DNA of 64,000 nt from Dactylosporangium siamense. GTDB taxonomy: Bacteria; Actinomycetota; Actinomycetes; Mycobacteriales; Micromonosporaceae. The translations under genes were made by a program, and so were the position numbers. Shown in pieces: positions 57,228 to 61,568 of the stretch. The notes beneath the pieces were generated by a model. The model ran no database searches. It was not told the origin of the DNA and saw nothing but the letters and a program-made list of their open reading frames with translations. The stretch is from positions 1 through 64,000 of the forward strand of contig NZ_BONQ01000155.1 of assembly GCF_016862795.1 (NCBI RefSeq), in the 5' to 3' direction. The first letter of the stretch is position 1. Each line of letters begins with the position of its first letter.

Positions 57228-58205
57228 ATGAAGGCGATCGTCCAGGACCGCTACGGCCCGTCCGATGTGTTGCGGCTCGGCGAGGTCGACCCGCCGGTGG
57301 CCGCCGCCGGCGAGGTGCTCGTCCGGGTCCACGCGGCCTCGGTCAACGCCCGCGACTGGCACGTCATGCGCGGCGACCCGTACGTCGCCCGGATGGCCTT
57401 CGGGCTCGGCGCGCCGAAGGTGCGGGTCCGCGGCACGGACTTCGCCGGCCGGGTCGAGGCCGTCGGCGCGGGGGTCACCGGCTTCCGCCCCGGCGACGAG
57501 GTGTTCGGCGAGATCGACGCCGCGTTCGCCGAGTACGTCCGGATCCCGGCCACCGGTCCGCTGGCGATCAAGCCGGCCAACCTCACGTTCGAGCAGGCCG
57601 CCGCGCTGCCCACGGCCGCGAACACCGCCCTCATGGGCCTGCGCGACGCGGCGCGGGTCACCGCCGGGCAGCACGTCCTGATCAACGGCGCGTCCGGCGG
57701 CGTCGGCACGTTCGCCGTGCAGATCGCCAAGGCCTTCGGGGCGCGGGTCACCGCCGTGTGCAGCACCAGGAACCTCGACCTCGTCCGGTCCCTCGGCGCG
57801 GACCGGGTGATCGACTACACCCGGGAGGACTTCACCCTCGGCGCCGACCGGTACGACGTCGTGTTCGACCTCGTCGGCAACCACGCACTGGCCGACTGTC
57901 GGCGGGTGCTGACGCCCGCGGGGGCCCTGGTGCTGTCCGGCGGCGGCGTGTCCGAGGGCGGCAGCCTCTTCGGGCCGGTCCGTCTCATCGCCCGGGCCCG
58001 GGTGGTGTCGAGGTTCGTCCGCCACCGGGTGCTCGCCCTCGTCGCGGTGCCGAGCCGGAAGAACCTCGAGACGCTGGGGGAACTCTTCGAGTCCGGCGCG
58101 GTCACCCCGGTCATCGACCGCACGTTTCCGCTCAGCGACGGCGCGGAGGCCGTCCGGTATCTCGAGATGGACCACGCGCGGGCGAAGGTCGTCATCACCG
58201 TGTGA
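57228..58205 (+). CDS. NAD(P)-dependent quinone oxidoreductase / zinc-less medium-chain dehydrogenase
   Basis: The 325-residue enzyme belongs to the quinone-oxidoreductase branch of medium-chain dehydrogenases. It has the GroES-like opening (MKAIVQDRYGPSDVLRLGEV), a VRGTDFAGRVEAVG segment and the cofactor loop NGASGGVGTFAVQIAK (about 145-160) that favours NADPH. The catalytic-zinc Cys/His set is absent. The ATG at 57228 follows GAGGAG. It is probably induced when the divergent TetR meets an electrophile or quinone-like ligand, which is inference. Confidence 0.9.
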   Translation: MKAIVQDRYGPSDVLRLGEVDPPVAAAGEVLVRVHAASVNARDWHVMRGDPYVARMAFGLGAPKVRVRGTDFAGRVEAVGAGVTGFRPGDEVFGEIDAAFAEYVRIPATGPLAIKPANLTFEQAAALPTAANTALMGLRDAARVTAGQHVLINGASGGVGTFAVQIAKAFGARVTAVCSTRNLDLVRSLGADRVIDYTREDFTLGADRYDVVFDLVGNHALADCRRVLTPAGALVLSGGGVSEGGSLFGPVRLIARARVVSRFVRHRVLALVAVPSRKNLETLGELFESGAVTPVIDRTFPLSDGAEAVRYLEMDHARAKVVITV

Positions 58206-58210
58206 ACCGG

Positions 58211-58417
58211 CTACGCCGGCACCCTCGGCTCCTCCGCGTCGAGCTCGGCCAGCAGGAACCGGGCGTGTGCCGCGTAGCGCTCGCTGACCTCGACGGTGTG
58301 CAGCACGGCGGCGCGGCGCTCGCCCGGGGTGACCCTACGGGTGGCGGCGAGCTGATCCCGCGCCGCGCGCAGGTGCGCCAGGTGCGCGTCAAGGAGCGCG
58401 AGAATGTCGTGGTGCAT
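58211..58417 (-). CDS. Small helical protein
   Basis: The 68-residue protein is almost wholly alpha-helical with heptad-like Leu/Ala spacing (ILALLDAHLAHLRAARDQLA, then VEVSERYAAHARFLLAELDA) and no membrane segment. The ATG at 58417 follows a G-rich tract (GAGGGG). It lies five bases after the stop of the convergent reductase gene. No family recognised; a helical hairpin is the likely fold. Confidence 0.5.
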   Translation of the reverse strand: MHHDILALLDAHLAHLRAARDQLAATRRVTPGERRAAVLHTVEVSERYAAHARFLLAELDAEEPRVPA

Positions 58418-58485
58418 GACCCCTGACCCCTCGACGTCGGGTGGCGTTGCCGCCGTTACCGGAGCGGAACGGCGGCACGGCCGGG

Positions 58486-58545
58486 CTACTTCTTCTTCTT
58501 GTTCTTCTTGTTCTTCTTCTTGTCCTTCTTCGACTTCTTAGCCAT
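58486..58545 (-). CDS. 19-residue lysine-rich micropeptide
   Basis: The product is MAKKSKKDKKKNKKNKKKK: 13 Lys, two Asn and no hydrophobic residue after Ala. The ATG at 58545 has an excellent ribosome site, GGAGGTGGG, five bases upstream, and the -10-like TAGGCT lies at 58599-58594. The codons are all AAG for Lys, creating an AAG-rich run unlike the surrounding DNA. The size and charge recall tiny actinobacterial ribosomal proteins such as bL37, but it is not the same sequence. RNA or ribosome binding is a guess. Confidence 0.6.
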   Translation of the reverse strand: MAKKSKKDKKKNKKNKKKK

Positions 58546-58664
58546 CCGACCCACCTCCGATTCCTGCTGGTTGTACCCGCGGATCTGATGTTTAGCCTAG
58601 TGGCCGGCGGGGCTACGCACAGGAGGATCGTTCACCTTGCGTACACCTTCTGTTCACCATTGCC

Positions 58665-61568
58665 TCAGGGGGCGGTCGGCAGGGTGAAGGTGAACGTAGT
58701 CCCGGTCGGCTCGGTCGGGGTGGCGGTGATCGTGCCGTGGTGCGCGTCGACGATGGCCTTGGTGACGGCCAGGCCGAGGCCGGTGCCCTTGATGCCGTGC
58801 GCGAGCGCGGTCGAGGCGCGGAAGAACCGGGTGAACAGCTGCTGGTACTGCTCGGGCGGGACGCCGATGCCGGTGTCGCTGACGCTGACGGCGGCGTCGT
58901 CGCCGGTGCCCACGGCGGCGACCGTGACCGTCCCGCCGGCCGGGGTGTACTTGACGGCGTTGGAGAGCAGGTTGTCCAGCACCTGCCGCAGCCGCGCCGG
59001 GTCGGCCCGCACCGTCAGGTTCGCGCCGGGTTCGAGCCGGACCGTGAGACCCTTGGCGTCCGCGGCCGGCCGGTGATCCTCGATCGCCTCCCGCAACGCC
59101 CTGGTCAGTGACAGCGGCCGCGGGTTGACCGCGAGGCTCGCGCTGCCGAGCCGGGCCAGGTCCAGCAGGTCGTCGACGAGCTGCTGCATGTGGCTGCTGT
59201 GCCGGAAGATGACCTCGCCGTAGCGGCGCACCTCGTCGGTGACGCCGGGCTCGTCGCCGATGATCTCCGCGTAGCCGAGGATCGTGCCGATCGGGTTGCG
59301 CAGCTCGTGCGAGACGAGGGCGACGAGGTCGTCCTTCATCCGGTCCAGCTCCCGCAGCCGCTCCACCTGCTGCCGCTGCTCGGCGAGGAGCTCCTCACGG
59401 TGCTCGGCGAGGACGCGGCGCTCGGTGACGTTGCTGCTCATCCCGTCCAGGAACAGCCGGCCGTCCTCCCGCCGGGCCAGCGCGCGGGTCCACACCCAGC
59501 GTGTGACGCCGTCGAAGCCGAGGACCCGGACCTCCATCTCCGCCGGCTGGTCCGCGGCGATGGACGCGTTGAACCCGCGGAACTCCTTGATGTCGTCCGG
59601 GTGCACCCGCTCGGCGAGGACCATGGCCAGGTCGGTGCCGCTGGGCATCGGCGAGCCGAACACCCCGGCGCCGTCGGGGCTGGCGTACACCGACCGGACC
59701 GTCTGGTCCGGCAGCACCTCGACGGTCCAGACGTAGTCGTTGACCCGGGCGATGACGCGGTCGAAGTCCAGGCGCGCGGCCGCGAGGGCGGTGGTGAGGT
59801 CGTCGGCGCGCAGCCGCTCGATCTGCCGGGCGATGTGCGCGCAGACGCCGTCGAGCATCGCCACGACGTCCGGGTCCGGCGGGACGAGCCGCTCGGTGGC
59901 GAAGACGAGGACACCGAGCACGGTCCCGCCGCTGAGGACCGGCAACCCGATCACGGCGTGCAGCCCCGCGGCGACGGCGGCGGCCGTGCGTTTCGAGGCG
60001 TACGGCAGCCGGTTGACGTCGGCGATCCACTGCGGCCGCCCGGTGCGCCAGACCTGGCCGATCATCCCGCCGTCACGGGTGACCGGCGGCGGATCGTGGA
60101 GGAAGTCCGGCCGGGCCCGGCCGGGGCTGGCCCAGACGCCGAGCCGGATCGCCGTGTCGGTGTCCGGGTCGACGTGCCAGTACTCGCCGAACGCCCAGTC
60201 CAGCGCGACCGTGACCGCCTCGATGACGGCCTCCGCCGCCTGCGCCGCGCCGCCCGCGGTCGTCAACGCCTCCGCCACGGCGAGCTGCGCGTCCCTGAGC
60301 CGCTCGGCCTGGTGCGCCTCGGTGATGTCGTGCATCGCCACGACCGCGCCGAGCCGCTGGCCGTCCGGGGCGTCGATCGGCTGGCCGTTGCACAGGAACC
60401 GCCGCTGCACGCCGCCCGGGCCGCCGACGACCAGTTCCTCGCCGTGGACGTGCTCCCCGGCGAACGCGCGGGCGAGCGGCACCTGGTCGGGTCGCAGCAG
60501 CCGCCGGCCGTCCGCGGCGAACAGCTGAAACCGCTCCGCCCAGGTCTGCCCCGTGGTCGGTTCCACCGGCACGCCCTGGTGCGCGTCGTGGAACGCGCGG
60601 TTGACCGTGGCGAGCCGGCCCTCGCTGTCGCAGGCGACCACGGCCGTGTCGAGGCTGTCCAGCAGCGCCCGCTGGAACGTGCGCTCGGCCTCCAGCTGCC
60701 GCCGCGCCGCCTGCCGGTTGCTCAGGTCGTGCACGAACGCGTGCACGACCGCCCGGTCGCGTTCGACGTACACCTGGGCGACGACCTCGATCGGGAACCT
60801 CCGGCCGGCCCGGTCCACCGCCGTGACCTCGAGGGTCGCGGCGGATCCGCGGCCGGCCGCACCGGCCAGCCAGGCGGCGAAGGCGTCGCGGCTCTCGTCG
60901 GCGACGACCACGCCGGCCGGCCGGCCGAGGGTCTCCGCCGCGGACCGGCCGAACATCCGCTCCGCGGCGAGGTTCCAGGCCAGCACGGCGCCGGCGGCGT
61001 CGAGCGACAGGAACGCGTCCGCGGCGCTGTCCAGCACCGCCTGGGTGCGCGTCGAGGCAAGCATCAGCTCGCTGTTGGCCAGCCGCAGGGCCAGCTCGAC
61101 CTCGGCGGCGCCGGCCAGGTCCGCGACCGTGTCGAGCTCCTCGGCGGTCCACTGCCGCGGCCCGTCGTCGACGACACAGAACGCGCCGAGCACCTGCCCG
61201 TCCGGCGTGCGCAGCGGGTGCCCGGCGCAGGCGGGTCCCAGCCGGGCGCCGGCCGGGTCCAGGCGGCCGCCGGTCACGGCCGCCGGCGCGTCGTCGTCCA
61301 CCACGCTCCGGCAGAGGTCGGCCACCGGCGAGTCCAGCCCGATGGCGGGCCCGGCCACACTGACGAACACCTGCCGGTGGGCGTCGAGCAGGGACACCAG
61401 GGCGGAGGGCACGCCGACCGCCCGCCGGGCGAGGCGGGTCAGGCGGTCCAGCGAGGGCACCCCGGCGGCCTGCAGCAGCCCGGTGGCGTGCAGCGACTCC
61501 AGGCGCGCCGGATCACCGGCGCGCCCCGCGGGCGTCGCACCCGCCGATCGTGACCCACGACCCCGCAC
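58665..61568 (-). CDS. Multi-sensor (GAF/PAS) histidine kinase
   Basis: The 967-residue soluble kinase has, in order, a GAF domain (about 20-165), a PAS domain (170-290), a second PAS (295-420), a GAF (425-600), a PAS (605-730), a HisKA dimer/phospho-acceptor domain with H754 in SHELRNPIGTILGY, and a HATPase (about 840-965; NLLSNAVKYT, DTGIGVP, KGTGLGLAV). No membrane helix is visible, so signals are intracellular. No response regulator is next to it. The GTG at 61568 is the only good start; the divergent PIG-L gene begins 62 bp away. The GAF domains lack obvious haem or bilin Cys motifs. Confidence 0.9.
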   Translation of the reverse strand: MRGRGSRSAGATPAGRAGDPARLESLHATGLLQAAGVPSLDRLTRLARRAVGVPSALVSLLDAHRQVFVSVAGPAIGLDSPVADLCRSVVDDDAPAAVTGGRLDPAGARLGPACAGHPLRTPDGQVLGAFCVVDDGPRQWTAEELDTVADLAGAAEVELALRLANSELMLASTRTQAVLDSAADAFLSLDAAGAVLAWNLAAERMFGRSAAETLGRPAGVVVADESRDAFAAWLAGAAGRGSAATLEVTAVDRAGRRFPIEVVAQVYVERDRAVVHAFVHDLSNRQAARRQLEAERTFQRALLDSLDTAVVACDSEGRLATVNRAFHDAHQGVPVEPTTGQTWAERFQLFAADGRRLLRPDQVPLARAFAGEHVHGEELVVGGPGGVQRRFLCNGQPIDAPDGQRLGAVVAMHDITEAHQAERLRDAQLAVAEALTTAGGAAQAAEAVIEAVTVALDWAFGEYWHVDPDTDTAIRLGVWASPGRARPDFLHDPPPVTRDGGMIGQVWRTGRPQWIADVNRLPYASKRTAAAVAAGLHAVIGLPVLSGGTVLGVLVFATERLVPPDPDVVAMLDGVCAHIARQIERLRADDLTTALAAARLDFDRVIARVNDYVWTVEVLPDQTVRSVYASPDGAGVFGSPMPSGTDLAMVLAERVHPDDIKEFRGFNASIAADQPAEMEVRVLGFDGVTRWVWTRALARREDGRLFLDGMSSNVTERRVLAEHREELLAEQRQQVERLRELDRMKDDLVALVSHELRNPIGTILGYAEIIGDEPGVTDEVRRYGEVIFRHSSHMQQLVDDLLDLARLGSASLAVNPRPLSLTRALREAIEDHRPAADAKGLTVRLEPGANLTVRADPARLRQVLDNLLSNAVKYTPAGGTVTVAAVGTGDDAAVSVSDTGIGVPPEQYQQLFTRFFRASTALAHGIKGTGLGLAVTKAIVDAHHGTITATPTEPTGTTFTFTLPTAP

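Follow-up and report, generated by a model that had tools for sequence, protein, structure and literature searches.

A lysine-rich micropeptide gene family of Micromonosporaceae with a predicted link to phosphate control

PHO boxes of the Streptomyces Pho regulon (PhoR–PhoP) consist of direct repeats of 11 nt, in which GTTCACC is the most strongly conserved core, as given in passages of PMC4415409 and PMC6283541 that describe motif and period for PhoP of S. coelicolor. The same core and the same 11-nt phasing occur upstream of a -10-like site at a lysine-rich micropeptide gene of Dactylosporangium siamense, and a similar box lies at the best pstS of that genome. Passages of PMC4415409 and PMC6283541 do not name a Lys-rich micropeptide as a member of the regulon, and the box described here is a predicted one.

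Two other systems invite comparison. AlgP of Pseudomonas aeruginosa, a lysine-rich H1-like protein, associates with polyphosphate (polyP) granules, whose regular spacing in starved cells depends on it, according to the abstract of PMC9239181. The micropeptide resembles it in the H1-like composition of its lysine-rich tail and in the theme of starvation and polyphosphate, but AlgP carries a 154-aa C-terminal domain of KPAA repeats, whereas the micropeptides are free-standing, 15–22 aa long, and place Asp, Ser, Asn or Gly between KK pairs, with few Ala and no Pro. A histone H1-like (Hc1, AlgP) family model had no match among the relatives scanned (20–41 aa), and we regard the tie as an analogy of working, not membership, claiming no homology. 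Amino-acid attenuator leaders likewise comprise a short ORF rich in one amino acid and a hairpin after it; unlike at such leaders, the next gene after the micropeptide is encoded by the opposite strand at 15 of the 53 loci, and no lysine pathway gene was found among the neighbours scanned.

The micropeptide gene and its surroundings

The window, the whole 64-kb stretch of DNA that was analysed, contains the following features around the micropeptide gene.

58486–58545, minus strand: micropeptide gene, 19 codons plus TAG, with its ATG at 58545 and its stop ending at 58486; product MAKKSKKDKKKNKKNKKKK
58550–58558, minus strand: Shine–Dalgarno sequence GGAGGTGGG, 4 nt before the ATG
58594–58599, minus strand: -10-like hexamer TAGGCT, beginning 54 nt before the ATG
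58630–58662, plus strand: PHO box composed of three direct repeats of 11 nt, GTTCACCTTGC-GTACACCTTCT-GTTCACCATTG, with 7, 6 and 7 of 7 core matches
58449–58476, minus strand: hairpin after the stop, 9-bp stem GCCGCCGTT/AACGGCGGC, terminator-like, with no T-run
58211–58417, minus strand: 68-aa ORF MHHDILALLDAHLA..., next downstream of the micropeptide, with the hairpin between them
58665–61568, minus strand: histidine kinase gene with GAF/PAS, 967 aa; the micropeptide gene starts 119 nt beyond its end
ending at 58205, plus strand: converging zinc-dehydrogenase-type gene

The product MAKKSKKDKKKNKKNKKKK has 19 residues, 13 of them Lys (68%) and all 13 encoded by AAG. The initial annotation had described such a 68% Lys micropeptide at 58486–58545 with a ribosome site upstream and TAGGCT farther up, and each of these elements is present (the ribosome site at 58558–58550, TAGGCT at 58599–58594). 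Its coordinates stand, but it named no strand: the gene is on the minus strand, where the frame with its ribosome site reads GGAGGTGGG-tcgg-ATGGCTAAGAAGTCG...AAGAAGTAG, and the plus-strand reading of the same positions is LLLLLVLLV.... Along with the strand, the PHO box and the hairpin had been overlooked.

The hairpin in the window has a folding energy of -28.2 kcal/mol (z -3.58). Beyond it, the 68-aa ORF is identical at 31 of 57 positions to an ORF at the same place in another Dactylosporangium locus (L203), also downstream of a micropeptide gene, and matched no Pfam or NCBIfam family. No homologue of it appears in the gene calls at the other micropeptide locus of the same genome; gene calls around the loci omit ORFs below 70 aa, so that the 68-aa ORF itself falls under the limit. 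That other locus encodes a second copy of the micropeptide, MAKKSKKDKKGKKGKKK. An Rfam scan of the 64-kb window gave no match at gathering scores.

A conserved family of free-standing micro-genes

We searched 300 genomes of the Micromonosporaceae, filamentous bacteria that live in soil, with the pattern ATG-NNN-KK-NNN-KK-NNN-KK, which was found at 53 places in 49 genomes belonging to 8 of 44 genera. All 53 matches are free-standing genes of 15–22 codons with 60–73% Lys, encoding 31 different peptides. The second codon specifies Ala in every one, although the pattern allowed any codon there. A purine Shine–Dalgarno core (GGAG, GAGG, GGGG or AGGG) precedes all 53 (GGAGG in 35), and a -10-like TANN(G/C)T lies upstream of 46, a number that drops to 20 when the reverse strand is scanned and to 24 in shuffled sequence; consensus promoter patterns of FliA, WhiG and SigR showed no clear enrichment upstream of the 53 genes. 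Read backwards as a control, the pattern matched one of the 300 family genomes, the window's own, once; over the family, order and class searches the backward pattern gave one match each in the window's genome (G000) and in G697.

Beyond the family, distribution was narrow. Among 249 genomes of the order, the only matches outside Micromonosporaceae were three, none of them the micropeptide gene: two were internal Met codons in long frames and one a 161-aa protein, and all were rejected. In 296 genomes of the class the pattern was found in the window's own genome only. Genus g4, which has many species, gave no match; a looser pattern (two mismatches, 31 genomes) gave a single one there, which was ruled out as a family member. 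In the window's genus, one of seven genomes lacked the gene at up to three mismatches. A looser search of the Actinoplanes missouriensis genus (g30) returned some match in 41 of 60 genomes, part of them other sequences. Twenty further loci were read (19 of g30 and one of the window's genus), yielding eight free-standing copies (of the MAKDKKKDKK type, with a GTG start, of 35 aa and others) and one 41-aa relative, the remainder being Lys-rich tails of longer frames or unrelated. A. missouriensis, in which gene studies are routine, has a copy with a GTG start and a PHO score of 12/14.

Other lysine-rich products occur in the A. missouriensis genus. The peptide MAKDKKKDKKDKK(G/S)KKSKKK, encoded at L244–L246, represents a second subfamily, whose PHO-like repeats are weaker (10/14). 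Loci L253–L258 and L260 encode small proteins with a WWAW segment and a hydrophobic stretch, whose Lys-rich tails (such as KKGKKGKK) are reminiscent of the micropeptide.

Codon changes in the comparable orthologues are almost all silent, which argues that the peptide is under selection. The comparison used 25 of the 53 loci, those with equal codon number within one genomic context, and only codons outside those fixed by the search pattern. Across 11 orthologues pN was 0.018 and pS 0.306 per site, and across five orthologues of another context 0.012 and 0.286, giving pN/pS of 0.04–0.06 in the two groups (16 loci together). Of the other nine loci, five had no differences and four had one silent difference per pair. 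One 19-aa peptide (MAKKSKKDKKKDKKNKKKK), found at 13 loci, is written in nine different ways. The initial annotation had proposed a genuine coding gene too short for normal annotation and had made conservation of the frame in relatives one half of the test on which that claim could fail; the frame came through this half strongly, and the 53 copies and the selection on them back the claim. The micropeptide gene is real and conserved, not a chance frame.

Codon choice is a separate matter. AAG accounts for 637 of the 661 Lys codons in the family and for 1,791 of 1,945 in the called genes around the loci; the share thus matches background usage, and the exclusive use of AAG, correctly noted before, is uninformative and needs no special explanation.

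Each copy appears to form its own transcription unit. When the 60 nt after the stop of all 53 members were folded and compared with shuffles, z fell below -1.5 in 47 of 53, compared with 5 of 106 controls (mean z -3.92 versus -0.03). Ten aligned g30 loci have in common the Shine–Dalgarno sequence, the coding part, the hairpin stem and a promoter-like block around TTTCC(C/G)TANCGTT(A/G)AC. Of the five loci in the gnd/nhaA context (families assigned by Pfam), four have a T-run following the hairpin, and all have a -10-like TAGGGT between hairpin and nhaA. The next called gene lies on the opposite strand at the 15 loci mentioned above, the window among them, where the same-strand 68-aa ORF comes first; these gene calls are rough, being based on codon-position GC and ORFs of at least 70 aa. 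Neighbouring genes are diverse across the family loci; those scanned with Pfam comprised 24 entries of the 57 distinct nearest-neighbour genes, plus the neighbours in the window and at L200 and L203. An autonomous micro-gene, with its own promoter, Shine–Dalgarno sequence, 19 codons and terminator-like hairpin, is the best explanation of the micropeptide locus.

Relatives of 20–41 aa matched no Pfam family, and those of 20–35 aa no NCBIfam. A full-text search with pieces of the peptide sequence returned one unrelated paper, and literature searches for such peptides found the family unreported in the titles and abstract openings of the matches listed, a scope that leaves aside subscription papers and preprints. 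Passages of PMC11364881 describe a smORF catalogue that goes down to 30 nt, and it may include family sequences unnoticed.

The gene goes with flagellin. Among the 300 Micromonosporaceae genomes, flagellin is present in 47 of 49 with the micropeptide gene and 47 of 251 without it, in raw counts that ignore kinship; by genus the figures are 6 of 8 and 5 of 36. It looks as if presence of the micropeptide were tied to zoospore-forming genera, and shared ancestry may explain the association.

The PHO box in the window and across the family

The three repeat units in the window have the cores GTTCACC, GTACACC and GTTCACC, matching at 20 of 21 core bases; with all spacings between 7 and 16 allowed, the closest competitor among the other triples of the 64 kb reaches 16 of 21. 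Pairs scoring at least 12/14 number two at period 11 (both within this PHO box), six at period 9 and three at period 12, periods 9 and 12 being coding periods. The triple-score control speaks for the PHO box, and the pair controls are neutral. Since isolated pairs turn up readily in 64 kb, what carries the case within the window is the third unit together with the position of the box. The upstream triple is a new finding beyond the initial annotation.

The box lies in the gap between two minus-strand genes and ends 30 nt above TAGGCT, with its repeats running opposite to the micropeptide gene, a placement that allows action on the micropeptide promoter. Only the micropeptide gene starts in this gap; because the kinase gene, transcribed in the same direction, ends there, the box can serve only the micropeptide. 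What marks a regulon member, at least two adjacent 11-nt units with a GTTCACC core upstream of the gene, is present in the window. As a positive control, the genome's best pstS has GTTCACCCCGC-GTTCACCCGTC (14/14) upstream of its likely start; among the six PstS-family loci of the genome only this best one has a clear box, two others having 11-scoring pairs, one a 12-scoring pair and two none. AfsR and GlnR sites can overlap PHO boxes.

Across the family, the signal is specific in both period and sequence. Scoring tandem GTTCACC at each spacing in the 140-nt region between -160 and -20 of every one of the 53 genes, we found that at period 11 a score of at least 11/14 is reached by 20 of 53 promoters and at least 12 by 6, whereas at periods 7–10 and 12–16 between 0 and 6 promoters reach 11 and none reaches 12. 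The expectation for period 11 at 11/14 or better was 0.6 per 53 in shuffles and 0.8 in segments of the same loci. Among 420 orderings of the same seven letters GTTCACC came first (20 of 53, against a mean of 1.06), and the runner-up, CGTTCAC (12 of 53), is the same motif displaced by one base. Orthologues make up many of the 53 loci, which are therefore not independent; divided by genomic context, in groups set by hand from the gene calls, the matches come from 6 of 16, 0 of 5 (gnd/nhaA), 3 of 5, 2 of 4 and 3 of 4 loci, from the window, and from 5 of 18 single contexts.

The box is not a constant feature of the family: 33 of the 53 promoters stay below 11/14, including the second copy in the window's genome (9/14) and all five gnd/nhaA loci, and for this reason we claim membership for no more than the window gene and some of its relatives in the family. 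About half of the 20 boxes (9 or 11, according to the treatment of ties), the window's included, are oriented opposite to the gene. The distance from box to -10-like hexamer ranges from 2 to more than 60 nt, and five of the 20 boxes have no hexamer downstream. At four Dactylosporangium copies the repeats end 2–7 nt above the -10-like hexamer, in place of a -35 element. Control by PhoP of the window gene and of a substantial share of the family, though not universally, is well supported as a prediction from these repeats; its sign could also be repression.

Phosphate also recurs among the neighbours. CHAD, which the abstract of PMC6537752 describes as a polyP-binding domain, is encoded next to copies in 5 of 53 loci (four of Dactylosporangium and one of the Actinoplanes genus), although each of eight genomes searched has no more than one or two CHAD genes. 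PhoD genes adjoin copies in two loci, with 3–10 such genes in each of the eight genomes searched, and a PBP_like_2 (PstS-like) gene adjoins a copy in one. At the PhoD loci, the PstS-like locus and the CHAD locus of the Actinoplanes genus no PHO box reaches the threshold, and the majority of the neighbours scanned are unconnected with phosphate. This theme, noticed after the fact, gives support short of proof for a connection with phosphate.

The four Dactylosporangium loci L198, L200, L201 and L203 share an arrangement in which the micropeptide gene has a divergent CYTH-CHAD gene on one side and, on the other, a gene of membrane phosphodiesterase type (PF01663); the assignments are by Pfam for the L200 genes and by BLAST clusters for the others.

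Possible functions and similar frames in other phyla

The reading we favour, with a probability of about 0.6, is that the locus is a PhoP-controlled autonomous micro-gene whose polycationic product binds intracellular polyanions. When phosphate runs out, PhoP would act through the PHO box and most likely switch the micropeptide gene on. A peptide in which Asp, Ser, Asn or Gly separates the KK pairs would almost inevitably be a disordered polycation, which would bind polyanions inside the cell. Binding of a polyanion, which the initial annotation had already suggested for rRNA, mRNA or DNA, is still the best guess at the biochemistry. Given phosphate control, the likely partner is polyphosphate or nucleic acid; polyphosphate, as a store to be organised or protected, would come first, and nucleic acid next. 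The computation shows the gene family, the selection on its peptide, the hairpin and the PHO-box signal; PhoP binding, the sign of control and the partner are all inferred from sequence features. The PHO-box tag in the window promoter makes the job of the micropeptide testable. If correct, this reading would add a gene class below the usual annotation size limit to one of the best-studied bacterial regulons, and would give actinomycete polyphosphate biology a small defined polycation for tests.

Other proposals are less probable. One, which we consider unlikely, is that the PhoP-controlled, free-standing poly-lysine micropeptide is a counter-ion that condenses, shields or positions polyP during phosphate starvation, and that the same solution evolved in unrelated phyla; if true, it would represent a very small dedicated polyphosphate-binding protein and provide a motive to examine the many short Lys-rich frames that pipelines discard. 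Also unlikely, though slightly less so, is a polycation for nucleic acid or the ribosome, a free-standing counterpart of an H1 tail that would compact DNA or protect rRNA or mRNA in starved or dormant cells or in spores, the PHO box being one of several starvation inputs. Its composition and lack of enzyme-like features would fit, as would the recurrence of short Lys-rich frames in many phyla and the company of flagellin-bearing genomes, which would suit a spore protein. That company is broken by two genomes and comes from counts uncorrected for kinship; the PHO-box and CHAD signals point to phosphate instead, and the relatives of 20–41 aa scanned had no Pfam or NCBIfam match.

Readings that deny the peptide a function of its own fare far worse against the family data. 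A leader peptide, in which a shortage of charged Lys-tRNA makes ribosomes stall on the AAG run and the hairpin attenuates the next gene, has in its favour the order of a Lys-rich short ORF and a hairpin, but the family's own hairpins, promoter-like blocks, opposite-strand next genes and diverse neighbours argue against it, as do the background share of AAG, the TAGGGT between hairpin and nhaA and the lack of a lysine pathway gene among the neighbours scanned; we consider it extremely unlikely. A lysine attenuator in particular is contradicted, no co-directional lysine-metabolism gene having turned up among the neighbours scanned. The suggestion in the initial annotation that the AAG run slows ribosomes finds no support either: the AAG share follows local codon usage, the codons vary synonymously, AAA and TCN/AGC included, the hairpin usually comes after the stop, and the next called gene is on the opposite strand at the 15 loci. 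It is very unlikely that the functional product is a short Pho-controlled sRNA with an incidental ORF; a short transcription unit with promoter-like and terminator-like parts does resemble an sRNA gene, but the peptide is kept while its codons vary, as the low pN/pS and the nine spellings of MAKKSKKDKKKDKKNKKKK attest. A spurious low-complexity frame, which 19 repetitive codons might bring to mind, has next to no probability: start, stop, Shine–Dalgarno sequence, hairpin and peptide are conserved in 53 places, which refutes it, and in the 296 class genomes the pattern was confined to the window's own.

Short lysine-rich frames are not confined to Micromonosporaceae. At least 54 such frames (10–25 aa, at least 50% Lys) were present in 53 of 117 loci from other groups, some inside longer open frames. 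MAKK-type Lys/Ala peptides of Bradyrhizobium, Rokubacteria, Opitutae and Cytophagales are like the micropeptide in length (10–25 aa) and Lys content (at least 50%), and several have a Shine–Dalgarno sequence and a hairpin; they differ in their Ala/Thr/Pro linkers and their contexts, with no evidence of common descent. Scanning the 54 Lys-rich peptides of other phyla for PhoB-type boxes with five motif variants, we found that CTGTCAT scored at least 12 at period 11 in three of 54 (the same Bradyrhizobium gene in three records) and in none at periods 9, 10, 12 or 13. The lead is weak, because CTGTCAC gave three at period 10 as well as three at period 11. In upstream alignments of Rokubacteria, Opitutae, Verrucomicrobia and Cytophagales, inspected by eye, no PhoB-like box was seen.

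The Bradyrhizobium records L040, L055 and L092, three related records only, encode MAKKAKKATKKKAKKAKKAKKK, with a PhoB-like direct repeat about 115–132 nt upstream: CTGTCAC-ATCT-GTGTCAT in L040, and CTGTCAC-ATCC-ATGTCAT in L055 and L092. In all three the repeat matches 12 of 14 core bases at an 11-nt period, and a strong hairpin follows the stop; an unrelated Lys-rich micropeptide has possibly come under phosphate control there by convergence. Candidatus Rokubacteria loci L045, L061, L097, L118 and L125 encode very similar 12–13-aa peptides of the MAKKKATKKKKK type with the Shine–Dalgarno sequence GGAGGTGA. A hairpin containing GGTGGGGGGTGGCGGCCTC follows the stop in five of six Rokubacteria frames, and L061 has two such frames in tandem.
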